The translations under genes and the position numbers were made by a program. The notes below the pieces were generated by a model. That model was given only the letters and a program-made list of their open reading frames with translations, made no database searches and was not told the origin of the DNA. Shown one piece after another: positions 41,532 to 64,000 of a stretch of DNA of 64,000 nt (positions within the stretch are counted from its first letter, which is position 1; every line of letters begins with the position of its first letter). This DNA is from Sipunculus nudus (taxonomy: Eukaryota; Annelida; Sipuncula; Golfingiida; Sipunculidae), in the NCBI GenBank assembly GCA_026874595.1, contig CM049320.1, positions 20,655,714 through 20,719,713 on the forward strand. Reading direction: 5' to 3'.

Positions 41532-41903
41532 TTATTTTGTAATTATTTTGTAAACCTCAATCAGATCTCCTCTCAATCTACTGTACTCTAAACTAGGAAG
41601 CTTATGATACATCAGATGTTCTTGATATTTCATGTTTTTTGTGCCAATAATCTTTTTTGTGAATCTTCTCTGCACTCCTATATTATCTATATATTTCCTT
41701 AGGTTAGGGCTCCAAACAGGGTTTCCATATTCAATTATGGGCCTCTCTAGGGTTTTGTAAAGGGGTACCATGATATCTTTACATTTATTTGTTAAAAGAT
41801 GTAACAAAATTTGTGGACTAATAATGATTGTTGACACAGCCCCTCTTATGAAACATGTCACAAGATCACTGGAAACTTTAAAAGTGGCAGTGCTACTGTG
41901 CAT
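41532..41903 (-). pseudogene. LINE reverse-transcriptase C-terminal fragment (CR1/Jockey-like)
   Basis: The minus-strand frame encodes the region just after the reverse transcriptase of CR1/Jockey-clade retrotransposons. Recognisable phrases are LYKTLERPIIEYGNPVWSP, then IGVQRRFTKKI and LPSLEYSRLRGDLIEVYKI. These match the well-known 'RPxLEYGNxVWSP...VQRRxTK...LPSLexRRxRgDLIexYKI' block. Only this tail remains, with no catalytic YADD region, so it is a 5'-truncated dead copy. The first 30 residues of the frame do not belong to it. Confidence 0.8.
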
Positions 41904-42817
41904 GCTTGTTCCAACTTCTGGAACAACTGACAGGCTCAGGGAAGCTAAACTTTTGAAATGTGTACTGTTTGGTATTAAAGCATGAATTTTAGCAAAATTT
42001 CTTGGTCAGTGAAATACATTGGCTCTTTCTGATGCCAAATGGGTAAGTCTCCTTGTCATACACACAATATTTGATTTTATAAGAATTTTTGTCCAGTACA
42101 GGATTTGCATTCTCAAGTTTATTGAAGCTTCATATATATGCAATGGGGTTTCGATGGAATGGATACATAATTATGCCACATTATAACATGCTGTTAATAA
42201 AGTCCATGTCAGTGGTAAATCCCAAGAAATGCCACTTTTTACTGGCAAATATTGGCATTTGTTGGTAAATACTGACAAATTGAATTTTATCACACCATGT
42301 CATATTAAAATTTCTTTCTCTGTATTATACTTTAATTTCCATTACTAGATTCTTCTTTTAAGGTTGAATTTCTAGCACTGTTGAAGTAAATATTAGATGA
42401 AAAAAAAATTGTGGGGGGGGGGTGTGTTTTTTCCCAAGGTAGTTTCCTTTAGGGCATTTTTGTCAGGTCAGTTTATTTCCTACTAATTCATAGACTGCCA
42501 TGAATGCACCTATTGTTAGGGCAAACCTGGACCAGCTGTTGTTTATGTAAGTGGTGACCAGTGGTCCTTATTACAGAAGAGTACTTCACTGGACAGTACT
42601 GGTTTCAGCCAGGAGATTGCCCACTAAACTACCTAGACCTATCTGGTCTTTAATGATGGTCATAGATCAGCAGAAGCACAGAAGTTCTCTCCTAAGCATT
42701 AATCTCCTGCTGTTAAAGATACAGCATGCAATGATCAGACCCAATATAATCAGGATAATTGCCTTGTTTGTTTGCAATGACTATTAAAAAAGCAATAGTG
42801 TTACAGTACTGTTACTA
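41904..42817. other. noncoding DNA
   Basis: G/T-run at about 42,412-42,432 and otherwise no recognisable feature. The 78-codon frame at 42,551 has no support. Confidence 0.45.
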
Positions 42818-44072: not shown

Positions 44073-44248
44073 GTCATGTCTACTGACAGCAGTCCAGAAC
44101 AAGGTGAACTTGAAGCAAGTCCTGATCATGAATACGCCAGACATCATCATGGTAAATCCCATCACCATGGAGACAGTATGGAGTCAGAACATGAGGAAGA
44201 AGAGGAGGACGAGAGGCCACACTCGAGCACAAAAAGTCCACAGGATCG
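44073..44248 (+). CDS. CDK11: CDK11 first coding exon
   Basis: The acceptor is tgtctgtgcattacag. The ATG at 44,076 comes three bases into the exon, so the 5' UTR is almost all in an upstream exon. It encodes MSTDSSPEQGELEASPDHE, a His/Gly-rich stretch and EEEEEDERPHSS. The donor is TCG|GTAAGA, leaving two bases of an Arg codon. Confidence 0.75.
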
Positions 44249-46024
44249 GTAAGATTCACATTTAGTAATTCTTTTCAGTATTTTAAAGGTTGGTGGTTAG
44301 TGCAGTTGTTGTGTTTTCCCATGAACAATTGTTAAGATCTGTGGTGGAGATAGTAATTATCCCCATGGCATGCTATTATGATGAGTATTTCTCATAAATA
44401 ATCTTCAGATCCTCAAATTGATGTTTTAGTCAAGTCTGTAGAAAAAGAAAAAAATGTATGAAATTGATCCAACCAGTATTAAGTGTCTCTTTGCCCAGTG
44501 CTTTAGTACAAGTGAGATCCATTTTATTGGACTGGTCAGTTCTTTTTACCAGTCTTACTAATGAATTGAACAAAGAAATATCTGGGAGCATTATTTTGTT
44601 AGTTGCAATGTACAATATTTCACTGGTCTATTGTGAGAACCTGGTTTCATGCAACTTTTTTTTTCTATCATTTTACCTTTTAGGGATGATGATGATGCCC
44701 TTGATATAAAACCACCACAAGCCAACAGTAAAAAACACAAACATAAGCACAAAGGAAGGGACAGACGGAAGGAGAAAGACAGAGAACGACCAAGAGAGAG
44801 AGAAAGGGAGAGAGAAAGAGAAAGAGGTAAGGACAGTGGAGAAATATTCAGTAAACAGGATTGGCCTGTGTGCCTCCTCTTTACTCACATTTTTGTCATA
44901 TATATCATTCTTCCCTTCCCAATACCTGAATGTGTTTACGGTGTTATGAAAGTGTATGGGACTGCCCATTTAAGTTTTCAAAGTTTTATATTTAGCTATT
45001 TATGTGAAAGCTCAAATTTCTTACATTCCAGATATCTCGACAAAACAGTTCTAGTTTAAGCTCATCCCAGAAGTCTTAAGTATTAGTGACAATTCTGATA
45101 AAGTGCAGCTCAGTTCACCTGGCATCTGTTAAAATTTGTCCTTGGCTTGTCCTGTCACGTCAGATTAGCTTGACCTTTGCCCTATAATGTAAGATAACAT
45201 ACAGTTTCATATGATTAACCCTTGGAATCTGTCCAGTTTGGTGTAGGGGGAGAGATATTTAAGAGGTGTTTTTCTTTATTCTAATTTTTTTTTCTGTAAA
45301 TGAGCTTTTTCATGAAATGATGGTCTGGTAACAGTTGATAGTCTTTGATTTGGTTTGTTCTGACTCTATCATATCCAAAAAGAGCTTATTTAGATTTTTC
45401 AGTTGCCAGTACAGGCTGTTTAGCAACAACCAATATGGGTTGGATGGGAATATGTCAGATGTTTTTATTTGAAACTAAATGATTCTGATGGTTTTATTAC
45501 GTAAACATAATTGTGAGCTGTTTCTGTATTAATGAGAATTTTCTCTGTTAAAGTTTATTCGCCCGAGTAAGCCAACCTAAAATTTTCCCGTATTGTGCCC
45601 ATTATCGCCCATCCCACCTCGTTCCTGTGTATCTAGGTCACACTTTTGTTTCCTGTAATCACATTTTTCTTCTGGCGTCAGCCATGATGGACGTGTGATC
45701 ACGCTCTGCGCGATTCGTCCACTGTTTTGGTTTGTACAGTCGGGTTTGCCAATGGAACTGTAAGTTGTGTTTCTTTTTCCCTTCCCGCCATGGAGAACCC
45801 CACTTATTGTGTTTCTTGTGGTTCCTTAATCCCTGCTTGGGATTCTCACCCCACTTGTTTCACCTGTCGTTTGAACAATGACTCCTGCCGGGGTCCGGTG
45901 GATCTCTCTTTCTACTGTCAGACATGGTCTTCTGACAAGTGGGCATTGTTTCAAGATTGGTCCCATTCCCCGGTAGTTGGGGGTTCCCCTTCCACGCTTC
46001 CTTTATCTGGTCCCGTGGTTGCCT

Positions 46025-46057
<33 letters not shown>

Positions 46058-49000
46058 GCCTACCCTGGATGAAGCGGAAGTCTTCCCTGGTTCATGCGGC
46101 TCCCCTTGCCGAAGGCCCGTCTGCTTTTTCCATCTTGCATAAATTATCTAGGTTTTGCTCGTCTCTGATGTCAGATCTAGACGATTCATCTAGACCCGAG
46201 TCCGTTCGTCCGGCAGCCTCGCCTGTTTCCCCGGAGCTTTCCCCAAGGCCGTTATCTTCATCCCCGGCCCCTCGCCGGCTTCCTTCCTTCTCCCCTGTGC
46301 CAACCTGGGCCGTCCCGCATTTTCGCCCGGGCCTTCCTGGTGTGCAGGTAAGTGATTCTGGCCCTCCTGCATCCCTTTCCTTTCAGCAGCCCTCACTTCC
46401 GGTGACTCCGGCTGCACCGGTGGTCCGTTCTGCGTTCTCCGGCCGGCCGGCTCTTTCTTTCAGTCCCCCTCTGCTGTGCCAACTGCGGCTCCGGTTCCTG
46501 TGTCTTCCTGGGTGGTTCCTGCTGCTGACCGGCCCTCGGCTTCTTTTTTTTCAGCCTACGGTCGTTCCGGCTCCACAAGTTTCCCCGGATCCCCCTTCCC
46601 GGGGTTCTCCAGCGTCCCTGTCCTCTCACACTGCCGATCCCACCCTGGCACAAGATCAGTGGTCAGAGATTGCCCTGCAATGCCAGGCTTGGCGTACGCG
46701 CAAATCTGCGCTAGTGGACCTCGTTGCTACCTCCACTCAACCTGATCTCTCGTTTACAGCCTCGGACTTCCACGGCGTCGGCGGCCGGTTCTTATTTGAA
46801 TCTGGCCGCCCTTCAATCGCCTTCCTCCACACCCGCCATGTGTATGGAGTTCACTGATCACACAGTTGATCTGTTACTACGCACTATGCTGTGGTTTCGG
46901 GGTCACGATCTACCAATACTGGGGACCCGTTACCCCCGGGTTCTGATAAACCCTGGTCCCCCGGTACCCTGTGGAATTCCTGCGGGTACCGCGCTACCTG
47001 CTTTGATCGTCTGATCCCCTTTCCCAATCATCTGGATATTCCATAGGCGCCGATGCGTCTTGAGTCCGGCCTTGAACAGCCGTTCGCGGACGGTAAATCC
47101 TTGTTTCCTTCCTCAGCCCCGTTCTCTGATCATCAACTGTCGGATTTGGAGGGGCTCGGGCGGCTGGGATGGTAAACGACTTGCAGGCCATTACTAGCCT
47201 GCTCGCCATCTCTCCTGACTGGCCCACGCTTAATGACATATGGCAGCTTCTGCCCATACCTGTGCTGAGCTGCAACAGGTTGTCTGGCAGCTTGTTGAAA
47301 ATTGTATTTTGTTGCGCCGCTTGGCTTGCCTTCAATCTTTAAAACACTTGAAACCGGAACTTACACAAGTGGAGTTGACTGAGCTTTACTCTCAACCTTT
47401 CACCAGCTCCTTTCTGTTTTGCGGCCATCTGGGGCCTCTTTTTGACTGCGCCTTGGAGCGCTCAGATCGTCAGGCCCACCTCCGCTCGGGCTCTCATGCG
47501 CCAAGGCCGTCCTTCCGCGTCCCGCGGTCTCGCCCTTCTAGTGCGGCTCACTCTTCGGCTTGTTGCGCTCCTGCTCAGTCTTCCCGTCCTTCCGGCCGTA
47601 CCAGCCGTTCCCAGCCATTTTGTGGTCGTTCCGCCAAGCGGGGTTCAACCAAGAAATGACTCGTTCGATCCGCTCGGCGCTCGTCTCAGCCAGACATGGG
47701 GCCTATTACTGATTTCAATAATAGGGCCTATTACTATTACTTTGGGTGTTTGCCTATTACTATTAACTATTACTGGTTTAATAAAAATAAGTAAAAACAT
47801 TTAATCTTGAAGAATCCTATGCTGATCGCTCGTTATGCCACACTAAAATATGTTACCAACCACTAAATAAACAAGAAATGGTGCATGAATAGTTCATAAC
47901 TAAATGAAGTGTCCATTGCACCTGATCAGTGAACATAAGCTGTTGAATCCCCCAGGTGGGAACAGTGTGGTACAGACAAGAGCCCCCCCCCCCCCTTCCC
48001 AAATTTTGCAAGCTTTATTTTAAATTTTATATTATTTTTTTAAATGTATGGCTACATTTAATTTTCTTTAAAGTGAAACCTGTTACAGTGCAAGAGTAAC
48101 TGTGCAGTGGTAAGAATATTGTATATATAGATAATTAAAGAGTCACTTTTGTCAATTGATTATCAACAATATAAACATCAACAATATATACATCTTTATT
48201 ATCATGAATGATTATTCATCAAATACTGATTATTTGCATTTTCATTTGACTGATTATTTTTTTTTTCATAACCTTACTAGTGTAAGGTATACACTGATAT
48301 TGTTTTTGTATATTTAACCAAAAATATAAAATATATAGTAAATTTTAATTTTGAGTTATTTTTAATTGAGTAATCCAAAAGCGGGGGGGGGGGGGGGGAA
48401 TGTCCTACACCCAGCAACGATCTGGTCTGAAGATTATTCCTGCAGTCCTAAAGATGCATTCGACAGGGGCTGAAGTGGTCAAGAGAGGCAAGATAAGGGC
48501 TTGAGGGTTCTTTCAGGTGGTTTCTCTTTTGCCTTCTCATAGATACCTAGTTTATTAAGATGCTGCAATAATCAGTGAGCCTTGGCGATGTGCAAACTTT
48601 GTCCTCATCATAAGAGTATGGTTGCCTTCATTGTATCAGGGTGGGTATCTGAAAATGTTACTATTATTATTTACCTGTTTCACATAACTGAAATCCTTTG
48701 TAATTTAACAAAATTCAAATTGCAACTGAATGCAGTTGCATAGTTTACTTTGAAAGAAACACTAACTCAGATTACATGTACATTTCATTTTCTGCCTGAA
48801 ATCAAATGTACTTCCACACTATTGTCATCCAGTTTCATCTGGGAGGTGAGTCATGTTTATAACATAAGGCAAACAAGGTTTTCATGGAGTGTTCCTTTCT
48901 GACTGGTGACAATATGATTTGCAAGAAATATGTCGCACACAGGAAATAAAAGTCACAATTCTGGGTAGGAAATAAAGTCACAGAAGAAAGCCACAAGATT

Positions 49001-52000
49001 GGAAAGGAAATAGTCACAGATTTGTGTTTAAAAAGGTACAGTTTTAGTCACATTTTTAGTTGGGAAACATTCACCTGGTATGACTTAACCTTTGGTAATC
49101 TGCCTGACATGGTTCTGCCCCAGTTATCAGTTGCTTATACACAAACATCAAAGGGCATGGTTGTACTGTGCTTTGATTGTAAAGAGCTTTTCATGCTATT
49201 CAGTATTCATGGAAACGCCTACATTGATGTACCAACAATGCAGTCATCCTGTGCTATTGTTGTTAGTGAGAAGTCATGGCCTAGGATAAGCCTGTGTCAC
49301 CTGTTAATGAGCATGAAAGCATGCAGGTTCACCTCAGCTGGGGCCCTCATCAGTGTTCCTGCTGACTTGCACTCAGACCCACAAACTCTTTATTACCCCC
49401 AGACTGGTAATAGTTAAAGTAATAGCTATTGATCTATTACTCATCTGCCTATTACTATTACTATTACTATTATTCAACATTTTTGGACTGCCTATTATCT
49501 ATTATTACCTATTACTGATGAAAAGTAATTGAATTACAGCCTATTACTATTATCTATTACTATTACCCCATGTCTGGTCTCAGCGCCCATTTTCCCGCTT
49601 GGGCGGGCATCACGTCACATCGGCTAGTTCTCAGCACCATAAATTCGGTTTCTGTCTTACGTTTTTGCACGCTCCTCCCGTCACCCTGCACCCGTTCTAC
49701 ATTCCGCCTCCGTCCGATCCTGTCAAACGCCTCGCTTTGGAGGAGGCTATTCAATCTATGCTCGACAAGAGGGCGATTTTCGAGGTTTCCCCGTCCACCA
49801 TTGGGTTTTCCTCTCGCCTCTTTCTTGTTCCCAAGCCGCACGGGCGGTGGCGCCCCATCATCGATCTAAAGCGCCTAAATTCGTTCATCGCCCCACCGCC
49901 AGTTCGGATGTTCAATATTCATGCGGTTCTCCGCATAGCCCGTCGGATGGATTGGGCGTTCAAAATAGACCTTAGGGATGCCTATTTTCACGTTCCAATC
50001 CATCCTTCATCTCAACGGTTTCTTTGGTTCGCATATCAGAACTGCGTTTTTCAAATCCGGGCCCTCCCGTTCGGGATCAATGTGGCCCCCTGGATTTTTA
50101 CCATGCTCGTTCACACGGTCACGCGTTACCTCCGCTCACAGGGCATTTCTGTGCTCCCTTATCTGGATGATTGGCTTGTCCATGCGGCCGATCGCTCTCT
50201 ATTACTGACTCATCGCTCCCTGGTTCTCAATTTACTTCAGAACCTTGGCTTTCTTGTCAATGCGGAGAAATCCCTTCTCACTCCCACCCAGTCCCTGCAG
50301 TTTCTGGGTATCACACTCGATTTTGCGTCCAGCACTGCGTCTCTCCCGCGCGATTTTGCTATCAAACTCCGCAGGCAGATTCGTTCCTTTCTCTCGTTGC
50401 GCCATGTCGATTCTGGGACCACAGCTTCTCTGCACGGCACTCTCAACTGGGCTGCCACTTTTATCCTGTTCGGTCTGCTATACCTCCGTCCGGTTCAGTC
50501 TCTCCTACACCATCACAGCCTTCGACGTTTAACCTCAGTTCGTCCTACGGTCCTCCCGTTTCAGCTCACATGGAGGTCCCTTCGTCCCTGGCTGGACCTT
50601 CCCTTTCTCCAGCAGGGAGTTCCTTTTTCTCAGGAGATCGATGGTACCATGTATACCGACGCGTCTCTCCTCGGTTGGGGTGCCCATATGGCCGATCTTC
50701 GTCATATGGGGGTCTGGTCCCCGTCGGAACGTCTCTTGCATATCAATGTCCTAGAACTTTGTGCAGTCCGTCGCACGATCTCCCGCTGTTCTCCCCGGTT
50801 GCTCGGCCGTCACATTCTCGTCCAGACCGACAACACGGTCGTGGCTTATATCAGCAGGCAGGGCGGTACTCGGTCTCCCTCTCTGATGCAGGAGACCTAC
50901 CTCTTGTTGGATCTGTGCATTTCTCTCTGGGCCTCGATTTGTGCGTCTCATCTTCCGGGCGTGTCGAACATTCTTTCCGACACCCTTTCCCGTCGCCCTG
51001 CGTCTCTTCCTCCGCCGGTGCTCTTTCCGCTCCTGGTAGTGCGGAGTTTTTTCACTTGTCTGGGGCGTCTGGAATTCGATCTATTCGATTTTCCTTCCCC
51101 CCCAGTTCTCGAACCTACCGCGACGTGTCTACGTCACCCTCGCGACCGTCTCCCCGGTTTCCCCCTGGTTTCCTCTGTGGCGCTCGCTTCTCTCCCGCCG
51201 TACGCTTCATCTACTGCTCCGGATCGATCTCCAATTGTTCCCACGAGCAAGTGCCCATTTAGGTCGTGCCCTCTGTGCCCATGCGTTCTTTCATCAGACA
51301 CCTCAAGGATCAGGGCATTTCAAGTCCTGCTGCTCTCCTTGCCTCGGCTCCCCGTCGCTGTTCTTTGGACTGCATCTATGACTCCCGGTGGCGTCTCTTC
51401 ACCGGTTGGGCGTCTACCAGTGGAATCTCTCCTTTAGCTCCGTCGCTTGCGGCGGTTTTGGATTTTTTTGTGTTTTTACTGCAGGATAAACATTTATCCT
51501 ATCCGTCTCTGCGTGGCTATCGTGCCACCCTGCTGTCCGTGCTCCATCCGCTAGGTAACGATCGTGCCCTTCATCATCCGTTGGTGACAGATTTTCTCAA
51601 GGGGGTTCATGCCCGTGTGTCTCATCCTCACTATGTTGCGCCTTCCTGGCGCCTGGACATTGTCTTACGTCACCTCCGAGAACCCCCTTATGAGCCCCTG
51701 GGTTCGGCACATCTTCTGCATTTGTCTCGGAAAACGGTTTTCTTCCTAGCTCTTGCGTCTGCCGGTCGCCGCTCTGAGCTTCATGCCCCAGTGGCTGATT
51801 CGAAATTCACGCAAATTGCGGCCAACAGTTCGTCGGCCACCCTACATTTTCCTCCGGATTATTTGGCGAACCTGTGAGCTTATGCTATGGTGTGCTGGCG
51901 TCTGGCGTCCGGCGTCCGGCGTCTGTACTTTAACCCATACTATCTTGCAAACGGCAAGAATTAGCATCACAAAATTTTATGCATAAAATTAGTCATCTAA

Positions 52001-55000
52001 AAAACTCTATCGGATTTTGCAAATTTTTTGGCTAACTGCATTTTCTTAGATTTTATAGGGAAAAAGCTAAAAAAGCTTAAAAAATCTTCTCCGAATCTGT
52101 TCAGCAAAATTGTCCAATATTTTACAGAAATGATTCCTGAAACAATCTCTCTCAAGTTTGTTCAAATGGTTTAAGTTTGGTGATTTCTGGTCAAGTTACA
52201 GGAAGTTGAACTTAGTCATCTGTCCTAAAAAGCATACTAAAATTACAATCTCAGAAATGGCTTGAGCTATCATCACCAAACTTTATGCCAATGTTGGTCA
52301 CATGAGTCATATCTGAAAATGAGGTATTGGTGGCGCCACCTGCATCGGCCTTTTTTGTACGGGGGTCATCAGTGCCTGTATCATACTGACAGCTACAAAT
52401 AACTTCTTCTCAAAAACCACTGGGCCAAATTATTAAATCTCACACATTAATTATCCTTAGGTGTTGATAATTAAAGTTTGTTCAAATGGTCTCAGTTCAG
52501 TGACTTTTGGCTGAGTTATGGGAAGCTGAATTTAGTCATATGCCATAACAGCCCATGTTAGCTAAGTGGCTACCAAAATCTTCTTCTCAAAAACCACTGG
52601 GCCAAATTCTTAAATCTCACACATTAATTATCTTTGGATGTTGATAATTAAAGTTTGTTCAAATGGTTTTGGTTCTATGATTTTTGGCTGAGTTATGGGA
52701 AGCTGAACTTTCCCATTTTGCTGTATTTTCCCATATGAGTTATAAACCTACAAAACGTTTTTCGACTGATGATACTGAGGCCAGTTTGTTTAATATTTTG
52801 CAAGAATAATTCCCTGAATCATTCTTATAACAATTGTCTTTTACGGTTCCAGAAAATGAATTTTGGCTGAATTATAAAGATTGATTTGAGTCATTTACCA
52901 TATATGTAAGCTGTGTGAAGCAGATACATGTATCTAGCCTAGCACCAGTTTATCAGCATCCATTACATCATGCCACTAGACATTTAGATTTCAGGTTATC
53001 TATGGAAATATTGACAAGAATGTTTTTTAAAAGTTTTTAAAAAATGTAGATTTATGATATTACATATCATCTGTACACTAACTCATAATTTCTCAGGAAT
53101 AGCAGGAGCTACCATCCCCAAATTTTATGCAATTATCTGTCACATATCAAATGTTGATGGATTCAGCTTATTTTTGCTATCTGCATTTACTTAGAATTTA
53201 CAAGGAAAAAGCTGAAAAAAACGTTAAAAGTCTTCTTCTTGTAAACAGTTCAGCCAGATTGTTCAATATTTTACAGAAATGATCCCAGAGGCGAGCCCTC
53301 TCAAATTTGTTCAAATGGTTTGTGTTGGATAAATTTTAGCAGAGTTACATAACAGGCCAAGATTGTGTATGTTTCTTGAATAGGTTGAGAAACTGCCAAC
53401 TGTTTCAGATTTGGCAACAGATCAAGAGTTCATTCAGTGCAGCCAAATATAGGTCAACAGTTCAATCAGTGCAGCCAAGCACAAGGCATGTGATCACCTC
53501 TTGGGCAGCATGTGATCATCTAATGGGTAGCATGTGAACACCTCATGAGTATCATGTGATCACCTCATGGGTGTCATGCCCCTGAGGGCTGCATATGGAG
53601 CCAATCTGTGAGCTTATGTAATTGTGTGGCTACTATTTCAGATTTGGCAATAGGCAAAAGGTCAGCCTGGATTTATTTATAGCTTTGGCAGACTGCCAAC
53701 TGTGTCAGATTATGCAACAGGTCAAGAGTTCACTCAGTGCAGCCAGGTACAGGTCAAAAGTTGACTCAGTCTAGCCAGGTGTAGGTCAAGAGTTCACTCA
53801 GTGCAGTAGCCTGAGCCAGTAATTTGTCACAGTACACTCTGGGCAACAGCCTTTCTCACCTAAGCCTGGTCAGCCTCGTCCATCAGACTCAAGGTAAGTT
53901 TGATGTATTGTCCTGATATTCTGACCTGTCTATGTGTCTTTAATGGCTTTCTCATTCACAAGACAGGTGTCGCCATCTACAATGACTTTTGCAAAGTGTA
54001 TGTGCCTGCTTATTTCTACAGAAGAATTTGATATATCAGCCTGAAATTGGACATATTTGTACATGTCAAATAGCTTTGTCATATACAAGACTGGTGGTGC
54101 CACCTGCAATAATTTTTGTGCTGTGTGCACCCATGCGAGAATTTCAGCAGTGATATTTGTGTATTGTTTCTTGTTCAAAATGTTTAGTACTTGCATTGTT
54201 CATATATATGAAAAGTAGTGGTTCAGCATTGAAGCATTATACCTGGTGTATGTCCATATGCACAGGTTCGCATTAGGCCTGTAGGCCTTGTTATAGAAAG
54301 AACCAAAATTTCGATGATCCTCCGTCAGCTTGGCACGTTCCGGCCCTCCCTAACGGTCAGTGCCGTTACGGGGCTACAAATTGCCCAGTTCGTGCTTTAC
54401 GTTACTATCTTAAAGCTACTCATTCTTTACGGGGGGGGGGGGGGGGGGGGGGCAAGAAGTTTTTTATTTCAACGAAAGTCACCACTTCAAACAAAGAAAT
54501 TAGCCCTATCACCATTAGTGCGTGGCTAAAAGCTACTTTTGTCGCCGCCTATGAGTCGGCTTCTCCATCAACCTTAGAGCAGCTTCACATCAAGGGTCAT
54601 GACATTCAAGCTCTTTCTACATCGTTGGGCCATATCTTGGGGATTTCCCCAAATCAGCTGGTCAAGAAAGGCTATTGGAAGTCACCTACTACCTTCACCC
54701 TCTTTTATCTCAAGGATGTTCAGTTACAAGCTTCGGGCCTTTATTCCTTGGGCCCGGTGATTGCGGCGAGGTCCTACAGTTTTCCAGGCTGTCATTGCCT
54801 TCTACGTCTGTTCCGGCAGCGACATCTTCGTCTGCTCCATCCCAGCACTGATGTTCTCATCTTTCCGTCGTTTCAGGTAGGTGTCCCCTCCCCAAGGTTT
54901 ATCTGTTATATTTTCATTAATACAGAAACAGCTCACAATTATGTTTACGTAATAAAACCCCCCCATTCCCTCCCTGTGAATGGTGGTTTTGTTAGTCAAC

Positions 55001-58000
55001 TGTTGTGAGCTTTTCTGCATTACAAACAACGCTCCCTCCCAGTCCACTTCCTTCTGCCTTCGAAAAATGTAATTACAGGAAACAGAAGTGTGACCTAGAT
55101 ACACAGGAACGAGGCAGGATGGGCGATAATAGGCCCAATAAGGGAAAATTTTAGGTTGGCTTACTCTGGCGTATAAACTTTAACAGAGAAAATTCTCATT
55201 AATACAGGAAAGCTCACAACAGTTTACTAACAAAACCACCATTCACAGGGAGGGAATGGGGGGGTTTTAATTGTCAGGAAATGTATGGATTAGTTCCATT
55301 AATATGCAAGAAAATCAAATGTTTTATTTTTAGCTCAGCTGACTATAAGTCATCTGAGCTATATTCGTGGTCCATTGTCCGTCTGTCTGTTTGTCTACCC
55401 GTCCTGGCGTCCGTCCTTAAAACAGGCACATTTGGACACCGTTGGACCTACAAATCTGAAATTTGGCATGCTGTTAGATGTCCCCAAAATCTCCTATCAA
55501 ACCAAAAACTGGGTCCCTGTGACTTTGTTCCTTTGAAAAATTAAGGAAAAACTTCATATTTCCATTAAAAACCTATTATTACACTTCAGGACTGCCTAAT
55601 ATCAAAACCACTTATCTGTTTTTTTTTTAATATTTATCAGAAGTATTCTTCTATATATTTCCTATACACATGCCAAAAATTAAGTCTGTAAAGAGTAATT
55701 TATTGGCCCAAACATAATGGACTTTGTAAAAAATCAGGAAAAATATTTACTCAAGTAACATGAAAGTTATTGAAGCTAGAGAATTCTTTTCAAGTATATA
55801 AATTTGTTTTATTAAGATTCAATTGTATACCCAAAATTAGATCTGTATTTTGTAAAACTTATAAGTTATTAGCATAAACATAAAATCAGTACCTTAAATT
55901 TTACCCCACTTTGACCATGGCACATTTTTTTCATGTGTGTACTGTTGATTTAATTTTCACAGCATGTAAACATAATTACAGTGGAACCCCACAATTACAA
56001 CCACCCCTGGGACTGAGCAAAGTGGTCGTAATTTGGGGGTGGTCATATTTGTGAAACTCTTACCTCAGTTTCACATAACCCGCCGAAGTTTAATGTGTAT
56101 CAGTGTGTTTCAATTGGATATCTTTAATGTGAATTATAACAAAATGTTTTACTGTGCAGTGACCCTTGTTATGAATGTTTTTTGTGTGTAGTTAAAAAGA
56201 AAACTTTTTTTAAATATTTACTCTTGATAAAAATAAATATACATGTACACATACATAATGCCTGACAATTAATTCAAAATTACACTAAAGGCAATAAGAA
56301 AACCTACTGAATACATATTGAACATGATACATGGTAGTATGTGCACGAAAGCCGTGGGACTTGAAATTTTGAAAGCACTGTGAATATCAATGGATGTTAA
56401 ATCTTCACGAATGAGTCTAAAGTAGTTTGTTGTGAGGTCACGCATGTAGAGGCACAGCCAATTGTTGCCGGTGTTGCCGCCTTGATTTAAGTCACTATCT
56501 GGTGTTGGCTTCTTGATAAACCCCACTTTCTCCCTCAAGTAGAGCTCTTTCCGAGGCATTGTCGCACAACAGCAAGCAATTTAAACGCAGACTGAAGCAG
56601 TATAGAAATAAACTGACAGCAATCTATCCAATAAGGTGAGACAATCTGTGGAATTTGCTCCTATGAAAGCTTTATTTATACATTTTCTCACTTCACAATA
56701 CTCAGTATAAGCTACATGGGCACATTTAGGATTAACTAGGTTAAATTTGGACCATTGAGGATTGAACAATATGTGATGAGTAGAAATACTAAGCTCTCAC
56801 CCTGCAGTTCGGGTAGCTGTAATACAGGTGATCACTGAGGGGCAACTAGCATCGCTAGCCCCAGACCTCAGGGCAGTTAGCCAGGCTCATTAAATAATCA
56901 GTTACCCTCTTTGATGTATCACGTACGCCTCAACAAGTCTTGGCGCGGACATTGATTCAGGAAGATATGCAGGACCAGATTAACACTCGGGTTGGGAAAC
57001 CTTGTTACCCTCTTTGATCTATCGTTAAGGCGCATGTGACAATTATTAAGGCACAGTCATTGCCTCGTGACAAATGTTGTTTCAGTATTTCTAGGCGGTG
57101 GTCGCATTAGGGGAGTCGCATAATTGCTGGGGCCAGGAAATCTGGTCGTAATTCTGAATTTAGAGGTGGTCTTAATTTTGAGTAATTAATAAATATAAAT
57201 AAACAAAAAAATATTTGGGACCAAGCAAAGTGGTCGTAATTGTGGGGTGGTCGCAATTGTGGGGTGGTCGCAATTGTGGGGTGGCCGCAAGGCGGGGTAT
57301 TGTATTGCAAGGCACTGTATTTAATTTGTTTAAATCTGAAATTTGAAAATAAAAGGTGGAAAATTAGGCTAGTTATTGAATTTTTTCTTGAGGCTCTATT
57401 GTAGTCACTTGCTTTGTTCCAGATGCAGGTAGGCCATTCCAGGTCACTGGAAGTCAGCTATGCCAGGGTTCCTGATTTGTTACAGTCACTGGGGGAGATC
57501 CCCTGCTGTGACAGGTGTACAATTGTTCTCATATAACACCCCCCCACCCCCCCACCCCCATAAATATACAAATATACATTTTCAAAAAATATTTCACAGA
57601 TCTTAACCTTACTTGGTATATGAATAGATATGGGTGAGAGGACGACACCTATTTAAAATGAGGTCCTGACCTTTACTAGGAGAGTGTCCTTGACCTTAAA
57701 TATGTCAAATTTTGGGAAAATCACACAAATTCTTAAATATCTTAAGAAATCTTGCATGGATTGATCCCAAAATCAGGTTGATCGAAGATCATGGGTCAGG
57801 TTGTCATGTTCCAGAAACTGGTGGCACCATTTATAATTCTTTACTTGTTTATGTGCCTTTTAATACCCCCAAAATTGCCACTTGACAGTACTGTGAGCAT
57901 TATAAGTCAAAAACTAATAAACAGATTTCTTTTATATTTTGCATATACATAGATATGGGTTATGGAATGATGTTTATTTAAATTGGGGTCATGACCTTTC

Positions 58001-61000
58001 CTATGAGAGTGGCCTTGACCTTGAATATTCCTTTATTTGGTGAAATTCACACAAAATCTTTAATAACTCAAAAAATATCTCACGGATCTTTACCAAACTT
58101 GCTATATGTATAGATAAGGGTGAGAGGATGACGCCTATTTGAAAGAAGTCATGACCTTTACTAGGAGAGTATCCTTGACCTTGAATATGTCCAATTTTGG
58201 GGAAAATCACACAAATTCTTAAATATCTCAAGAAATCTTGCATGGATTGATCCCAAAATCAGGATGGTCAAAGATCATGGATTGGGTTGTCATGTTCCAG
58301 AAACTGGTGGCGCAACCTATAATTCTTGTTTATATGCCTTTTAATACCCCTGAAATTGCCACTTGACAGTACTGTGAGCATTATAAGTCAAAAACTAATA
58401 AACAGATTTCTTTTATATTTAGCATATACATAGATATGGGTTATGGGATGATGTTTATTTAAATTGGGGTCATGACCTTTCCTATGAGAGTGGCCTTGAC
58501 CTTGAATATTCCCATATTTGGTGAAATTCACACAAATTCTTTTATATCTCAGTAAGGGATACATGGAATGATCCAAAAATCAAATTGACCGAAGATCTTG
58601 GATAGCTTTGTCTTTTGGCGAAGACAGGTGGTGCCACCTTGTGTCGTTTTCTTGTTAAAATGATGTTAACGCAATCACTTTGTAAGAATTTGAGGTACAT
58701 TCACCAAACCCACAGGTTTGATGCATCATATCAACAGCAGGTCAAGTTCGAACATGGATGACCTTGATGCATTTTTTCAAGGTCACAGCAGTGATTATGC
58801 TAAAATGATATTAGGGCAATAACTCAAAAAGAATTTGTGGTACAGTCTCCAAACCTACGGTTTAGATGCATCTTATCAAGGGCTAGGCCAAGTTCGAATA
58901 TGGATGACCTTGATGCATTTTTCAAGGTCACAGAGGCGATAACGATGGAATAATGTCAACTTTAATATCTCACTGAGGGATGCAGGGATTGATCCAAAAA
59001 TCAAATTGACGTTAGATCGTTGATAGCATTGTTTTCTGCAGAAGACAGGTGGTGCCACCTTGTGTTGTTTTCTTGCTAAAATGATGTTTAAACGGAATAA
59101 CTTAGTAAGAATTTGAGGTACAGTCACCAAACCCACAAATTTGATGCATCTTATCAACAGCAGGCTAGGTCAGATTAGAACATGGATGACCTTGATGCAT
59201 TTTTTTCAAGGTCACAGCAGCGATTATGCTAAAATGATATTGGGCAATAACTCAAAAAAAGAATTTGTGGTGCAGTCACCAAACCTACAGTTTAGATGCA
59301 TCTTATCAAGGGCTAGGCCAAGTTCGATTGTGGATGACCTTGATGCATTTTTCAAGGTTACAGAGGCTATAACGCTGAAATGATGATTACTTTAATATCT
59401 CACTGAAGGATGCATGGATTGGTCCATCAAAGAGATATGTCATACAGTCACAATTCATAAATCCCCTCTTCAGCATAGATAATCATAACATTATATCTGT
59501 CAAATTGAAATCTTGCGGACTTCCATACTCTTTAGATCCTTCAACAAATAGCCTTATCATCATTCTACCACTGCTTAGTGTACTGTCATTGCATTCATAT
59601 ATGCTCAAATATATTGCTATTTTCAACAGCTCCCAAATAAATAAAAAATAAACCACTATATTTACTGCATATTAATCCATCAGTCAGGTGATTTCATACA
59701 TCATTTACTCACATATTACATTATATTCCTTTATAATAGCCCAACATGTCCATGATATTTATAAGGTTTGTCAACTAAATATAGTATCACAATGGTGATA
59801 CATTTATAGTTTAATCACGATCAGCAGAGCACCATTTCCCATGGGTCCCTTGTTTTTTTTTTTTTTTTTGCTTTTGAAACACTTAAAATAAATTTGTCTT
59901 GTTCACTTTGAATTTTCAGGTTTTAGTCCTTTTCATGGATATTGACATAGTTTTAAAAATGTTTTTATATTTTACTTTACTTGAAGCTAATAAATCAAAC
60001 AGAGAAAAAGAATATGAAAGGCGAGAGGCTCGGCCAGCCCCTAAAGAACGGGAACGAACCAGGGAGGATCGCAATATACAGCGAGAACGGGAAAGGGAGA
60101 AGAAACAGAGAGAGGTAGAACTGGAAGCCAGACGGAGGGAGAAGTCTCGCCTGGAAAGGTACCATTTCTGCCTCAAACTGGCGTGTTTTTCTGAGCTTAT
60201 GGAAAGTTCTGTTCATTAAGTACAGTGGAACTCCACAATTAAAACCACCTTGGGGACTGACCAAAGTGGTGCAATTTTGGGGTGGTTATATTTGTGAAAT
60301 TCTAAGCTCTGTGATCATATATACAGGAACATAGGTGGTCATAATTGTGGAGCTGGTTGCAAGGTGGGGTTCCACTCTACAGCGGAGTCTGTCTAAAAGA
60401 CCACCTTTCTGTGAAGGCCACCTGTCTATTAAGACCACCCTTGAGTGAACTGAAAACACACTGGATATATTTGACCTGTCTGATTTGACCACCTGTGAAT
60501 TAAGACCACTTCTGACCAGTCCCATGGTCAGTCTTATTACACAGGTTGTACTGTATCTGAAAATGTATTCCTACTCCACAAAATAAACATCTCCATGGCC
60601 CCAGCAAAATTTCATTGAGTAACTAGAAATCTGTTTTCACCTATTTGGCCCATATTCCCAGGTTGATTCAAGCATAAGTGACTGTAGATTTGTGAATATT
60701 CATTGATGACATTCCTGAAAATGGATCATGTTCCTAATCTATTCCTAAATCTTATCAATTCCTCTTTGGTTAATATTTAAAAATGCCCTTTTCAGACATG
60801 AGCTTCTGTTCATAATTGTGTGAGGTATGTTGTGAACAAACACACAAACACAGGGGGATGAATACATATCCTCCTGATGGAGGCAAAGACATTAGAACGG
60901 TAACCAAGTATATGACAACATAAGGAGCATCCAGTTTTTTTTTTTTTTTGGTGGGGGGTTTGTTAAATTAAGCATCAAAAGGTCTCAAAGAGAAAAATAA

Positions 61001-64000
61001 AATTAAGTGGGGCCCTGCTAGTGTGCTGAACCATAATTGAAGTATTTACATTATGCAGGGAGAGGCTGGAGCGGTTGGAGATGAAGAGGCGCCACCTGGA
61101 GAGAGAACATCAGCAACGTGAGCGAGAACAGAGAGATCGAGTCATGAGAGAAAGAGAACTTGAACGGAGGAGAGACAGAAACCGTCTGCCCAAGGATGAT
61201 GCTCGCAGGAAAATCGAAGCTCGTCGGGAAGGTCAGAGTCACAGAAATATCTCTAAAAATAGTCAGTGATTGTGTTGCATACTGTGGTCAGATAAACACA
61301 AGTTTCAGTATAACAAGGTTTGACACAATCGGTAAATTGTACAGTTTGACAATAGTTAAGGTTACATCTCTATCACAAAAAGGTTTACAAGTTAGTTGAA
61401 ATCATGAGATAGTATTTTATTTGAAATCCCTGGCATTTTTGTCAAGAAACTCTATGAAATTTAGTGGAATGAAAAGTATTAACAAATAACATATTGTTTG
61501 ATCCTCTCCTAGCTTAAAATCATGTGGCTCATAAATTTTCTGAATATACAAGTAGTAGAACAATTTTTTCTTGATGGATAAAATTTCAAAGGTCTTTTTT
61601 TGACATTAGCTTACTTCCATATATGTTTTGAATTAGGTCATTTTCATTTGATGATTTTCATTTCCTTCCTGTAAAACTTGGTAATTTAAATTATTTAATT
61701 AAAAAATGTGCTAAAATATATATAAAATCAGTTCATTTTCATGAGGGTTATTTTGTTATATTTTATAAATCTTTGGTGTAATAAAAAAAAGTTAGGATCT
61801 GACTGAACAAATGTGTAAACTGCATATGATAAAGCCAACCAATGATCATGGTAATAGTATAGATCTTATATGCTCACAAACTGCTCACATGCTTCATTTT
61901 TAGCTCAGCTGACTGTAAGTCATATGAGCTATAGCGATCACCCTTTGTCCGCCGTCCAACTGTCTGTCCGTCCGTTAACCTGGGACAAATCGTAATCGCT
62001 GGACCTAGAAACTTGTAACTTGACATTCTGAGAGGTTCATGAAAAATCTCCTTTGAAACCAGAAATGAGGTCTCTGTTACTCATATCCTTCAAGCTATGG
62101 GGCCCCAAAATACCCCCAAGAATAGTAAAAAATTTCATACAAAAACTTCAATATCTCATTAACTACACCACCGATGTTCATGATTTTTTGCATACGTATT
62201 GATCATGAGATGTTCCATCAGTTCCTGTAGACTGGTGGCACCACCTCTTTTTTAGCTCTGCTGACTTTCAGTCATGCTGGGCTATAGCGATGGGTCTTTG
62301 TCCGGCGTCCTTCCGTCTGTCCGTCCGGCCGGCCGGCCGTTAGCAGGGCACAAATCGTAACCGTAGGGGCTAGGGCCATGAACCCTATGCAGTCTTAGAG
62401 GTTATAAAAAGATCTCCTTGCAAACCTGAAATTAGGTCACTGCAACCTATATTCTCAAAGTTATGGGGTGTGTTTGCACCCCCTAGAAATAACTCTTTGA
62501 GACAAAATTTTCATCCCAAACCTTCCATCTTTCACATACAACTCACCTACTAAGTTGGAGAAGAATCCTATAGATTTTGAGGTCAAAAGGTCAAAGGTCA
62601 AGGTCACAGGATCCACTTCTTGGAAAAGGTAGTGGACACATTTCAAGCTAGACTTTTCATTCCAAACCTTCCAGCACTGATATCGCTTCTCTGCCAACAG
62701 GGGAAAAGACCTGTTGATTTTGAGGTCAAAGGTCAAGTTCACAGCACCCACTTCTTGCGTGGAGTCATTTTCAGGCAAACTTATCAATCTGTACCTTCCA
62801 TCTGTCATATATGGCTTACCTACCAATAAGGGAAGAAGCCTATTGATGTTGAGGTCAAAAAGTCAAAGGTCAAGGTCACAATATTTAATTGTTCTAAATG
62901 CTTGTGAGCATATTTCAAGTGTAACTGTTCAACCCAAACCTTCAGTCTTTCACATATGCCACATCTATGCTTCACTCAGTTTGACTCAAACTTCATATTT
63001 ATGGGTCTTTTTGCTTGAATAAATAACTTATTGATTTTGGGGTCAGCTGGTCAGCAGGTTAAAGGTTGCAGGTCAAAGTTATTCACCCATTGGTTGCCAA
63101 GTAATTACACCAGATTTAAGTGGTCAGTAGTTACCCATCATTTAGAAAGAATCCAGTAGATAAATGTGCAAAAGGCCAAGGTCATAGGTCAGGGATGTTC
63201 ACAATTACTTATTTTATAGACCATCTCTATTTTTCTTGTATATATAACCATCCCACTCCAGCTGGTACATCTCCCTGTGTGGCTGTAATTATGAGTGACA
63301 CTGGTGACATATGACTCCCTTTTGTATCAGCCTATTAAGTGATAAGGCTCAGTGATAAGTACCTGTTACTTCATAACAAAAACACTGTTGTCAGAATGCT
63401 TCAGCCAGGCATTAAGACTATGAGAGTATAGTATTACGGTTTATCTACTGATTTATAAGATGATGGGAACATTTTGCAGTTTATTTTATGGAATCCTAGC
63501 AATAAACTTAGTTTCCTAGATATCTGAATATTTTAATATATATCACCACATATAAAAGCAAGTGTTTGTTCTCATAATATGTGGAAGTGTACCTTGATTT
63601 AGGATGGCTTTTTGTTTTATTTCAAGACTCTTAGTCATGCTTTCTGCATTTCTTTTCTTTCAGGTTTGGCAGTTTACCTACCCTGCTGACCCCATTGAAA
63701 AGCAGAGTGATAATAAAAAATATTGGACTTACACTTTTTACAATTGCATATCTATAAATCTGATATGAGGGCCTGGACATGCCTATGAATTATTTTGGGC
63801 ATTTATTACTGGATAATTTGCCCCAAGTTTGGTCTCTTATTGGAGAATGTGGGATATCAAATGTCATACTTGTCAGAAATCCATTATGTCTGCCAGTTAG
63901 CCACCTTAGAAATTCTTTCTTCAGGGCAGTTTCAGTAATTTTTCTTTAATGTTTGGTCCGATTTAGAGAATGTTTGTTGTCTGATTTCAGACTTGTCAGA
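44073..64000 (+). CDS. CDK11: cyclin-dependent kinase 11 (PITSLRE kinase), N-terminal exons, partial
   Basis: CDK11 is a nuclear serine/threonine kinase that partners with cyclin L and acts in transcription and pre-mRNA splicing. The four exons are 44,073-44,248, 44,684-44,826, 59,987-60,158 and 61,059-61,231. Splice phases agree at every join (2, 1, 2, then 1 outgoing). The encoded order is an acidic start with EQGELEASPD, a His-rich stretch, an acidic patch, the signature DDALDIKPPQANSKKHKHKHK and then long Arg/Glu-rich charged helices. The IKPPQ block and the following RERERE region match the CDK11 N-terminus of animals. The kinase domain with its PITSLRE motif is not in the window, so the gene continues to the right. 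Another RE-rich splicing protein is the main alternative, but the IKPPQ block makes CDK11 much more likely. Confidence 0.75.
44249..44683. other. CDK11 intron 1 (between coding exons)
   Basis: A short AT-rich intron bounded by GTAAGA and a T-rich acceptor (ttttaccttttag). No element is seen inside. Confidence 0.65.
44684..44826 (+). CDS. CDK11: CDK11 second coding exon (IKPPQ exon)
   Basis: The first base completes an Arg codon from the previous exon. It encodes DDDDALDIKPPQANSKKHKH, a Lys/Arg-rich run and RERERERERER. The donor is AGAG|GTAAGG, leaving one G. The IKPPQ motif is the strongest evidence for CDK11. Confidence 0.8.
44827..45490. other. 5' part of CDK11 intron 2
   Basis: Ordinary AT-rich intron sequence up to the left end of the DIRS element. 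No separate feature. Confidence 0.65.
45491..45673 (+). repeat. DIRS left inverted terminal repeat
   Basis: From GTTTTATTACGTAAAC to the 'cctgtaatcacatttttc' block. It is complementary to 55,061-55,264 except for the outer 35-60 bp, which differ between the two ends as is typical of DIRS. Shared blocks include 'aatgagaattttctctgtt' and 'gcctcgttcctgtgtatct' (with small changes). Confidence 0.9.
45790..47659 (+). pseudogene. DIRS gag-like region, frame-broken
   Basis: The likely start is the ATG at 45,790 (MENPTYCVSCG). The N-terminus has a CxxC...HxxCxxC pattern like a small zinc finger (CVSC ... HPTCFTC), followed by Pro/Ser-rich low complexity. A 30-base G-run at 46,027-46,056 encodes poly-Gly in frame. 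The first frame stops at 46,857. Conserved-looking pieces continue in other frames (46,724-47,014 and 47,240-47,659), so at least two frameshifts or stops are needed. The last frame ends with TGA at 47,657 and is in the same frame as the polymerase once the hAT insertion is discounted. Confidence 0.7.
46027..46056. repeat. 30-base G-run inside the gag region
   Basis: Uninterrupted G run. Its length divides by three, so the reading frame is kept. It is expected to form a G-quadruplex and to vary in length. Confidence 0.95.
47691..49576. mobile_element. non-autonomous hAT element inserted in DIRS
   Basis: The element starts CAGACATGGGG and ends with the exact reverse complement CCCCATGTCTG, an 11-bp terminal inverted repeat with the CAG start usual for hAT. 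It is flanked by a perfect 8-bp target duplication, GTCTCAGC, at 47,683-47,690 and 49,577-49,584. Subterminal regions at both ends carry many GCCTATTACTATTA-type repeats, the sort of sites hAT transposases bind. No transposase is recognisable. A 131-codon frame at 49,022-49,417 is of unknown nature. The inside also contains a G-run at about 48,384-48,399. Confidence 0.9.
49022..49417 (+). CDS. hypothetical frame inside the hAT element
   Basis: A 131-codon open frame starting MCLKRYSFSHIF. I recognise no domain, and it lacks the DDE or dimerisation motifs of hAT transposases. It may be captured host sequence or chance. Confidence 0.15.
   Translation: MCLKRYSFSHIFSWETFTWYDLTFGNLPDMVLPQLSVAYTQTSKGMVVLCFDCKELFMLFSIHGNAYIDVPTMQSSCAIVVSEKSWPRISLCHLLMSMKACRFTSAGALISVPADLHSDPQTLYYPQTGNS
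49599..51437 (+). CDS. DIRS reverse transcriptase-RNase H
   Basis: The 612-codon open frame begins at a TTG; the frame is open upstream into the hAT target site, so the native start is elsewhere. Reverse transcriptase (about residues 70-300): VPKPHGRWRPIIDLKRLN, then FKIDLRDAYFHVPIHPSSQR, ALPFGINVAPWIF and the catalytic LPYLDDWL at 187-194. RNase H (about 350-465): MYTDAS, INVLEL, QTDNTV and SDTLSRR supply the four acidic residues. The YLDDWL variant and the domain order are typical of DIRS/Ngaro. No stops interrupt it, unlike gag. The last 172 nt overlap the recombinase frame. Confidence 0.92.
   Translation: MGGHHVTSASSQHHKFGFCLTFLHAPPVTLHPFYIPPPSDPVKRLALEEAIQSMLDKRAIFEVSPSTIGFSSRLFLVPKPHGRWRPIIDLKRLNSFIAPPPVRMFNIHAVLRIARRMDWAFKIDLRDAYFHVPIHPSSQRFLWFAYQNCVFQIRALPFGINVAPWIFTMLVHTVTRYLRSQGISVLPYLDDWLVHAADRSLLLTHRSLVLNLLQNLGFLVNAEKSLLTPTQSLQFLGITLDFASSTASLPRDFAIKLRRQIRSFLSLRHVDSGTTASLHGTLNWAATFILFGLLYLRPVQSLLHHHSLRRLTSVRPTVLPFQLTWRSLRPWLDLPFLQQGVPFSQEIDGTMYTDASLLGWGAHMADLRHMGVWSPSERLLHINVLELCAVRRTISRCSPRLLGRHILVQTDNTVVAYISRQGGTRSPSLMQETYLLLDLCISLWASICASHLPGVSNILSDTLSRRPASLPPPVLFPLLVVRSFFTCLGRLEFDLFDFPSPPVLEPTATCLRHPRDRLPGFPLVSSVALASLPPYASSTAPDRSPIVPTSKCPFRSCPLCPCVLSSDTSRIRAFQVLLLSLPRLPVAVLWTASMTPGGVSSPVGRLPVESLL
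51266..51870 (+). pseudogene. DIRS tyrosine recombinase, N-terminal part
   Basis: About 200 residues starting MPSVPMRSFIRHLKDQGIS. It contains an alpha-helical core-binding domain (RWRLFTGWAS, LRGYRATLLSVLHPLG) and the first catalytic Arg in the block LASAGRRSELHA (about residues 164-174). The frame stays in phase up to PPDYLA and is then cut by the family C insertion, a few residues before the catalytic core continues at 54,297. It overlaps the end of the RNase H frame, as is common in DIRS elements. Confidence 0.85.
51871..54296 (+). mobile_element. family C element inserted in the recombinase gene
   Basis: It starts 'cctgtgagcttatgctatgg' and then a GGCGTCTGGCGTCCGGCGTC tract. It contains 177-bp tandem units (52,411 and 52,588: 'caaaaaccactgggccaaat'), a 24-bp array 'gggtagcatgtgatcacct' at about 53,482-53,580 and 33-bp units at about 53,690-53,810. 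It ends with the palindrome AGGCCTGTAGGCCT followed by TTGTTAT. No coding capacity is recognised. The right edge is uncertain by a few bases. The host reading frame resumes at about 54,297-54,301. Confidence 0.8.
54297..55008 (+). pseudogene. DIRS tyrosine recombinase, C-terminal part
   Basis: An open frame from 54,301 continues the recombinase: CPVRALRYYLKATHSLR, a poly-Gly run from 22 G at 54,431-54,452, ISPITISAWLKATFVAAYES, then IKGHDIQALSTSLGHI and YWKSPTTFTLFYLKDV. The nucleophile Tyr in FYLKD is kept. The usual HxxR motif reads HDIQ: the second catalytic Arg codon has become CAA, as expected from CpG decay of CGA. With the family C insertion as well, the enzyme is dead. The frame runs past the domain into the internal complementary region. 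Confidence 0.85.
54909..55022 (-). repeat. DIRS internal complementary region
   Basis: The first half is the reverse complement of the outermost 50 bp of the left end ('cagctcacaattatgttt', 'acgtaataaaac'). The second half is the reverse complement of the outermost 60 bp of the right end ('attccctccctgtgaatgg', 'tggttttgttagt'). In DIRS this region templates completion of the ends of the circular intermediate. Confidence 0.9.
55061..55266 (-). repeat. DIRS right inverted terminal repeat
   Basis: Reverse complement of the left repeat over about 150 bp ('aggaacgaggcaggatgggc' against 'gcccatcccacctcgttcct'). It has its own outer 60 bp ending GGGAATGGGGGGG before TTTTAATTG of the host. Confidence 0.9.
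55979..57317. mobile_element. pogo/Tigger-like DNA element, 1.34 kb, internally deleted
   Basis: It starts CAGTGGAACCCCACAATTAC and ends in ...GGCACTG, both flanked by TA, the target site of Tc1/mariner/pogo elements. The right end repeats 'gtggtcgtaattgtgggg' and 'tggtcgcaattgtggggt'. The insertion splits family A sequence that is continuous in copy 1. A minus-strand frame at 56,269-56,559 starts MPRKELYLREKVGFIKKP, which recalls the start of Tigger transposases, but no DDE domain remains. Confidence 0.6.
57589..58560. repeat. two tandem units of about 487 bp in family A copy 2
   Basis: Blocks such as 'gatagatatgggtgagaggac', 'tgacctttactaggagagt' and 'gccttttaatacccc' recur about 485 bp apart. 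Each unit contains one or two TGACCTTGACCTT-type motifs. Confidence 0.85.
58545..59420. repeat. two tandem units of about 425 bp in family A copy 2
   Basis: 'gacaggtggtgccaccttgt', 'gatgaccttgatgcatttt' and 'tcaaggtcacagcag' recur at period about 421-428 bp, starting near 58,545, 58,967 and 59,395. Within each unit the 'gatgaccttgatgcattttt' phrase is itself repeated. Confidence 0.85.
59987..60158 (+). CDS. CDK11: CDK11 third exon (Arg/Glu-rich)
   Basis: It follows acceptor ttactttacttgaag. The G left over from exon 2 joins CT to give Ala, confirming the phase across a 15-kb intron. It encodes NKSNREKEYERREARPAPKE followed by a charged coiled-coil-like stretch ending RREKSRLE. The donor is AAAG|GTACCA, two bases left over. 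Confidence 0.75.
60223..60377. mobile_element. 155-bp MITE related to the pogo-like element
   Basis: It starts CAGTGGAACTCCACAATTAA and ends 'gtggggttccactc', near-complementary ends with TA on both sides (60,221-60,222 and 60,378-60,379). Internally 'accaaagtggtgcaattttg' matches the 1.34-kb element at 55,979. It lies in CDK11 intron 3. Confidence 0.75.
60380..60553. mobile_element. 174-bp MITE, adjacent second family
   Basis: It starts CAGCGGAGTCTGTCTAAAAG and ends 'ttacacaggttgtactg', with imperfectly complementary ends. It shares its left TA (60,378-60,379) with the previous MITE and has TA at 60,554. The 'aagaccacc' phrases repeat inside. Pogo/Tigger type by its ends and TA target. Confidence 0.7.
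61059..61231 (+). CDS. CDK11: CDK11 fourth exon (Arg/Glu-rich)
   Basis: It follows acceptor acattatgcag, with the first G completing an Arg codon. It encodes RERLERLEMKRRHLEREHQQ, then a charged stretch ending RKIEARREG. The donor GAAG|GTCAGA is acceptable but not strong. The next exon is not visible before the window ends. Confidence 0.7.
61232..61896. other. CDK11 intron 4, 5' part
   Basis: Ordinary AT-rich intron sequence, no element recognised. Confidence 0.55.
61897..62249 (+). mobile_element. 5' end of a family A relative, copy 3
   Basis: TTTTAGCTCAGCTGACT, 'gtaagtcatatgagctatag' and a GTCCGTCCG tract match the family A 5' end. The body then differs ('gggacaaatcgtaatcgctgg'). Confidence 0.7.
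62250..62570 (+). mobile_element. 5' end of a family A relative, copy 4
   Basis: 'tttagctctgctgactttcagt', 'gggctatagcgatggg' and a GTCCGTCCGGCCGGCC tract. It shares 'ggcacaaatcgtaa' with copy 3, so the two belong to one subfamily. It leads into the AGGTCA-rich array. Confidence 0.65.
62571..62890. repeat. tandem units of about 130-143 bp rich in AGGTCA half-sites
   Basis: Three units each contain 'gaggtcaaaggtcaaggtca' variants. At 62,580-62,606 there are four AGGTCA half-sites with 2, 1 and 0 spacer bases. 62,723-62,735 is a perfect DR1, AGGTCAAAGGTCA. 62,867-62,878 is AGGTCAAGGTCA. It is part of the family A relative at 62,250. Confidence 0.8.
62891..64000. other. CDK11 intron 4 continuing to the window edge
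   Basis: The tail of the repeat (further 'ggtcaaagttattc' and 'ccaaggtcataggtcag' motifs to about 63,195) is followed by AT-rich intron. A good acceptor at 63,663 (ctttcttttctttcag) is not followed by RE-rich coding sequence, so I do not call an exon. The last 250 bp contain a loosely repeated 'gtttggtc..at.ggagaatgt' motif. Confidence 0.45.

Follow-up and report, generated by a model that had tools for sequence, protein, structure and literature searches.

DIRS1-like elements are tyrosine-recombinase retrotransposons with inverted terminal repeats (ITRs). According to those parts of a published survey on which we draw (PMC3266345), these repeats have a conserved and a divergent part and are mostly followed by a right extension, which matches the right complementary region only. 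Two complementary regions overlap at a 3-bp circular junction, insertion leaves no target duplication, and the ends are mostly NTT (23 of 28 elements). In the 64,000 nucleotides of Sipunculus nudus DNA analysed here (contig CM049320.1, positions 20,655,714 to 20,719,713; called the window in the following and counted from its first letter), the span 45490-55269 can be compared with this description. We put the probability at roughly 95% that this span is a DIRS1-like tyrosine-recombinase retrotransposon which inserted into host DNA at GGTTTTA, probably in an intron, and is now dead. The insertion and the parts of its ends are:

45490-55269, plus strand: whole DIRS1-like insertion, from inverted repeats, internal complementary region and length arithmetic
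45490-45669, plus strand: left ITR, starting with GGTTTTA, from its match to the right repeat
54910-55022, minus strand: internal complementary region, made up of the right and the left end in reverse complement
55062-55237, minus strand: right ITR, from repeat alignments
55238-55269, plus strand: right extension of 32 nt, ending with GGTTTTA, read from alignments

The 9,780 bp of the span are bounded by inverted repeats. A sequence-only reading of this stretch had proposed to align its two ends and an internal segment with each other. This was done, and all three inverted pairs are present: 45521-45669 with 55062-55210 (149 nt, 93%), 45490-45539 with 54910-54959 (50 nt, 98%) and 54953-55022 with 55200-55269 (70 nt, 96%). 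The ITRs as a whole (45486-45669 against 55241-55062) align at 90.2% over 184 columns. When the interior was shuffled in 2-base blocks (n = 200), the best inverted matches to the ends covered 31 of 50 and 37 of 70 positions, compared with the 49 and 67 observed. The conserved part of the ITRs measures 149 nt, the divergent part 31 nt on the left and 27 nt on the right. The right extension pairs with the internal region and not with the left ITR. On the minus strand the internal region reads ...GGGAATGGGGGGGTTTTATTACGTAAAC..., right end first and left end second, and its halves (54910-54959 and 54953-55022) overlap at TAAAACC, which is GGTTTTA on the other strand. Repeats, right extension and internal region stand in the published order, and the internal region is a record of the junction of the circle (right end fused to left, in reverse complement), just as had been proposed; only its start moves, from 54,909 to 54910.

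GGTTTTA is common to the internal region and to both chromosomal junctions, with one copy at each junction: GATTCTGAT, GGTTTTA, TTACG on the left and GGGGG, GGTTTTA, ATTGTC on the right. Because the same 7-mer stands at both junctions, the ends can be resolved only to 45490-45496 and 55263-55269, and the terminal trinucleotide is GTT, TTT or TTA according to where the cut is placed within GGTTTTA. The sequence-only reading had taken 45491-55266 as one element with exactly fixed ends and GGTTTT as the crossover sequence of its recombinase. The ends do follow from the internal region and the junctions do share this string. However, the shared string has 7 nt and not 6, the ends keep about 7 nt of leeway, two nested inserts lie between them, and the crossover is only bounded to somewhere within GGTTTTA. 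No target-site duplication was seen at the ends of the element. Judging from the flanks of this one insertion, the target would have read GATTCTGAT-GGTTTTA-ATTGTCAGG beforehand.

From what the sequence shows (repeats, encoded junction, shared GGTTTTA, domains and inserts), the following course of events appears plausible. The RNA of the element would have been copied by its reverse transcriptase (RT) and RNase H, as in the published model. The internal complementary region could have paired with both ends, giving a complete circle with the right end joined to the left. The recombinase would then have recombined the short joint of this circle with an identical short chromosomal sequence, which would leave no target duplication. 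The hAT-like and HINE-like insertions and the decay of the genes other than RT/RNase H would have come later.

The crossover model, as given in the cited part of the survey, requires 3 bp (PMC3266345); the target of the present insertion shared 7 nt. In the host parts of the window, counted on both strands, 2.0-4.0% of the sites with the core trinucleotide, according to which core is used, match the joint of the circle over at least 7 contiguous bases (GTT 42 of 1973; TTT 96 of 4832 and 122 of 4832 in its two registers; TTA 129 of 3206). In this lineage the recombinase may recognise, or favour, joints of more than 3 bp, but with one insertion to go by we consider this unlikely.

The described elements LgDIRS1-3 of Lottia gigantea and AcaDIRS1-2 of Aplysia californica have, by their description (PMC3266345), the same divergent and conserved ITR parts, the same right extension and two overlapping complementary regions, no left extension and a similar net size, which is ~5,457 bp here (9,780 bp minus the two inserts and one 8-bp duplication). 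The nearest in ITR size is LgDIRS2, with an ITR of 34+141, an extension of 46 and internal complementary regions of 46-67, as against ~31+149, 32 and 50-70 in the present copy. In contrast to the GTT, TTT or TTA found here, the ends of these molluscan elements are ATT (four) or AAT (one). Further differences from their published description are the decayed or lost methyltransferase, the two inserts and the split recombinase (PMC3266345). Fish and Xenopus DIRS1-like elements with GTT and TTT ends share both the architecture and the class of terminal trinucleotide, as far as the cited accounts describe them (PMC3266345, PMC9210276).

Termini this well defined had been thought uncommon in mollusc DIRS copies. 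Table 3 of the survey speaks against this: five of its 28 annotated elements, with termini given and lengths of 4,680-5,808 bp, are molluscan, and thus defined mollusc termini are not exceptional (PMC3266345). In the parts of the literature used here, DIRS and Ngaro elements are reported mainly from bivalves and two gastropods, at low copy number (PMC10294476), the two columns of the repeat table of the Mercenaria mercenaria genome give 1,136 and 1,082 DIRS copies (PMC8905726), and Dirs1-like elements are present in mollusc outgroups (PMC4157794). The locus confirms a known architecture and is a mere further member of the DIRS1-like elements: an ordinary, defective and apparently old copy with textbook termini. 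It is well bounded, its RT stands well apart from the relatives used for the tree (highest identity among them 48%, over 394 columns), and its ends and junction make a clean query for family members and for the target homology needed by the recombinase.

Between the ends lie the following coding remnants and inserts:

45790-46857, plus strand: first piece of the gag-like frame, an open reading frame (ORF) with a zinc-finger-like motif near its start
47240-47659, plus strand: second piece of the gag-like frame, in another frame, from ORF and three-frame reading
47691-49576, no strand assigned: insert A, a hAT-like DNA transposon, from terminal inverted repeats (TIRs) and target-site duplication
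49599-51437, plus strand: open frame of RT and RNase H, from ORF, Pfam and homologues
51040-51378, plus strand: weak trace of a Dam-like methyltransferase, out of frame and shortened, from tblastn
51281-51865, plus strand: N-terminal piece of the tyrosine recombinase, from likeness to relatives
51866-54294, plus strand: insert B, HINE/Helentron-like, splitting the recombinase gene, from the recombinase break and end signatures
54295-54882, plus strand: C-terminal piece of the tyrosine recombinase, aligned to the relatives P0104, P0121 and P0031

The RT/RNase H frame is followed by the recombinase. It comprises 612 uninterrupted codons, in agreement with the sequence-only reading, and contains the motifs YLDD, TDAS, LEL, QTDN and LSDTLSR. 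Pfam recognises RVT_1 (E 1.1e-22) and, below its cut-off of 24.8 bits, RT_RNaseH (22.9 bits, E 9.8e-5). Among 7,992 scored candidates, 444 proteins match the RT. Of these, 120 were listed; the best 20 of them show 43-48% identity over 67-82% of the query, and three further ones 51-53% over a third to half of it. A quick tree was built from 116 rows, namely the query, 114 of the 120 relatives and a Ty3 outgroup; six relatives, including P0031, were left out for coverage or length. The tree unites the query with 35 relatives in a single set (SH-aLRT 100). Three members of this set (P0003, P0011 and P0012) as well as P0031 continue into a recombinase similar to that of the element. The fish and amphibian relatives P0094, P0106 and P0110, to which the RT is 39-41% identical locally and 35-37% in the multiple alignment, fall outside this set of 36 rows. 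Two scans for RT relatives in viral contigs returned 2 and 30 pattern matches, none of which was confirmed.

The recombinase pieces were cut at the break of insert B before alignment and show 35-44% identity to relatives in the alignments shown, and 27% to P0117. The N-terminal piece keeps the first catalytic arginine (AGRRSE) and, in 186 aligned columns, shares 44% identity with P0003. The C-terminal piece has the catalytic tyrosine, and HDIQ at the HxxR position, where P0031, P0104 and P0121 have HEVR. A search of a large protein database with 54301-54882 gave P0121 as the single match (E 2.4e-15). Since the HSTR motif is retained in just 13 of 28 DIRS1-like elements of the survey, at least in the part cited, HDIQ alone is no proof of inactivity (PMC3266345). 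The split of the recombinase gene does prove it.

For the methyltransferase, the C-terminal parts of 86 relatives were used as tblastn queries against a 1-kb target. On the E-value scale of that search, weak matches in another frame were obtained with P0101 (2e-4) and P0052 (0.002). The gene thus appears to be decayed or lost, be it in this copy alone or in the family as a whole; its complete absence was considered and set aside in view of this weak trace. Downstream of RT/RNase H, a Dam-like stretch was found in five of the six RT relatives tested, with 14.0-24.7 bits and thus always below the Pfam cut-off of 28.1 (P0001 20.1, P0003 20.3 and P0008 only 14.0, which belong to the set of the query in the tree, and P0031, which is not in the tree, 19.9), and P0104 gave no match. 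A motif label for this domain was too narrow, as it marked 30 of the 120 relatives and missed the Pfam-matching P0032, and it was not used. Methyltransferase loss has been inferred more than once among such elements in the cited part of one study (PMC4157794), and therefore absence would not bar membership of the DIRS1-like group.

The first gag-like piece holds the motif C-x2-C-x11-H-x2-C-x2-C, and the fish relative P0094 has a similar one. The gene is broken, with two pieces in different frames and stops between them. We call it gag-like on account of its position and this motif.

A run of 30 G (46027-46056) lies in the gag-like frame and a run of 22 G (54431-54452) in the recombinase frame, at a place where three relatives lack four residues; the latter frame stays open. 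The window holds 12 runs of at least nine G or C.

The two nested inserts account for 4.3 kb of the span. Insert A lies between gag and RT and has 1,886 bp at 35% G+C, compared with 46-56% in the DIRS parts and 36.5% in the window. hAT transposons are marked by an 8-bp target duplication and short TIRs starting with CAG. Insert A has both, with 11-bp TIRs (CAGACATGGGG) and an 8-bp target-site duplication (GTCTCAGC) at 47683-47690 and 49577-49584. Its only internal ORF of at least 100 amino acids (131 amino acids) has no Pfam match. Because no transposase was matched in it, we call insert A hAT-like and non-autonomous at most, which it apparently is. It also carries subterminal CCTATTACTATTA repeats.

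Insert B has 2,429 bp at 38% G+C and interrupts the recombinase gene between adjacent residues: residue 775 of P0031 corresponds to codon 51863-51865 and residue 776 to codon 54295-54297. Its two breaks may be displaced together, at most one base leftwards or three rightwards (P0104 fits +3 equally), and the codon before KNQ is R by P0031 and A by P0104. A 5-bp duplication GAACC was considered and rejected. With it the recombinase would have one residue fewer at this point than P0031 (..FMRKNQ..) and P0104 (..FIAKNQ..), and the break without it is therefore preferred; a duplication of 1-2 bp (A or AA) around the insert is possible. Structural features of insert B are a subterminal inverted repeat of 11 bp (GCGAACCTGTG, 51866-51876 and 54261-54271), a stem-loop (54275-54288) close to the right end and internal repeats of ~142 bp and of a 22-bp period; it sits directly after ATTT or ATTTG. 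HINE/Helentron elements are characterised by subterminal inverted repeats, a 3' palindrome, internal repeats and a T-rich target without duplication, as stated in the cited parts of two studies (PMC4067079, PMC7492417), and insert B shows this structure. It resembles the oyster and arthropod elements described there in its subterminal inverted repeats, internal repeats and right-end stem-loop as well as in its insertion beside Ts with no evident target duplication (PMC7492417, PMC4067079). A second copy of insert B was not found within the window.

Several points weigh against the assignment of the whole element to the DIRS1-like group. Neither the gag-like pieces nor the two recombinase pieces match Pfam (N-terminal query 51266-51877), and the recombinase was identified by its likeness to the frames of relatives. 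Pfam finds no methyltransferase in the element, which has at most the weak out-of-frame trace. The branch of the query in the RT tree is long (0.91), and the tree consists mostly of unnamed relatives, with no named DIRS, PAT or Ngaro element among them; as a quick tree with long rows it deserves less trust.

The uninterrupted RT had also been taken as a sign of fairly recent activity. A recently active copy with two very young inserts would explain the open frame of 612 codons with its active-site motifs and the 96-98% likeness of the ends to the internal region. However, RT/RNase H alone among the four coding regions (gag, RT/RNase H, methyltransferase and recombinase) has an open frame: gag is broken, there is a mere trace of the methyltransferase, and the recombinase is split and has HDIQ instead of HEVR. 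The conserved ITR parts are mismatched at 10 of 149 positions (6.7%), and between the ends and the internal region 4 of 120 positions disagree. If neutral sites change at 1-4 x 10^-9 per year, these 14 differences in 269 positions would correspond, very roughly, to ~6 to 26 million years. In described DIRS1-like elements the conserved terminal repeats are strictly complementary, according to the cited part of the survey (PMC3266345). The divergence of the repeats, the two later inserts and the broken genes thus argue against recent activity, for which an uninterrupted RT by itself gives little support, and we regard a recently active copy as improbable.

An element of the PAT or Ngaro type, whose repeats merely appear inverted, would agree with the barely detectable methyltransferase, since Ngaro elements are described as having none (PMC3266345, in the part cited). 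Yet these groups carry split direct repeats, whereas all three terminal pairs are inverted here and none of the eight direct-repeat families of at least 20 nt joins the ends. Moreover, near relatives of the RT have the Dam-like stretch, and repeated loss of the methyltransferase is reported in the cited part of the literature (PMC4157794). The inverted rather than split direct repeats make both PAT and Ngaro very improbable. An assembly or rearrangement artefact with inverted copies by chance, to which the long G runs might have contributed by disturbing assembly, can practically be dismissed, as repeat order and overlap are those expected for DIRS1-like elements and both inserts bear end signatures of their own.

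In the surroundings of this DIRS1-like copy, exon-like plus-strand frames rich in R and E lie at 44130-44860 and 59970-61260, which we take to resemble the N-terminal part of CDK11. If this resemblance holds, the element sits in an intron in sense orientation. A repeat with two copies (36650-36871 and 55303-55533), whose frames read LAQLTISHLSY..RGPLS, has its second copy shortly beyond the right end of the element. On the minus strand, a frame at 41535-42005 contains ..YKTLERPIIEYGNPVWSPNLRKYIDNIGVQRRFTKKI.. and is presumably the remnant of a LINE.

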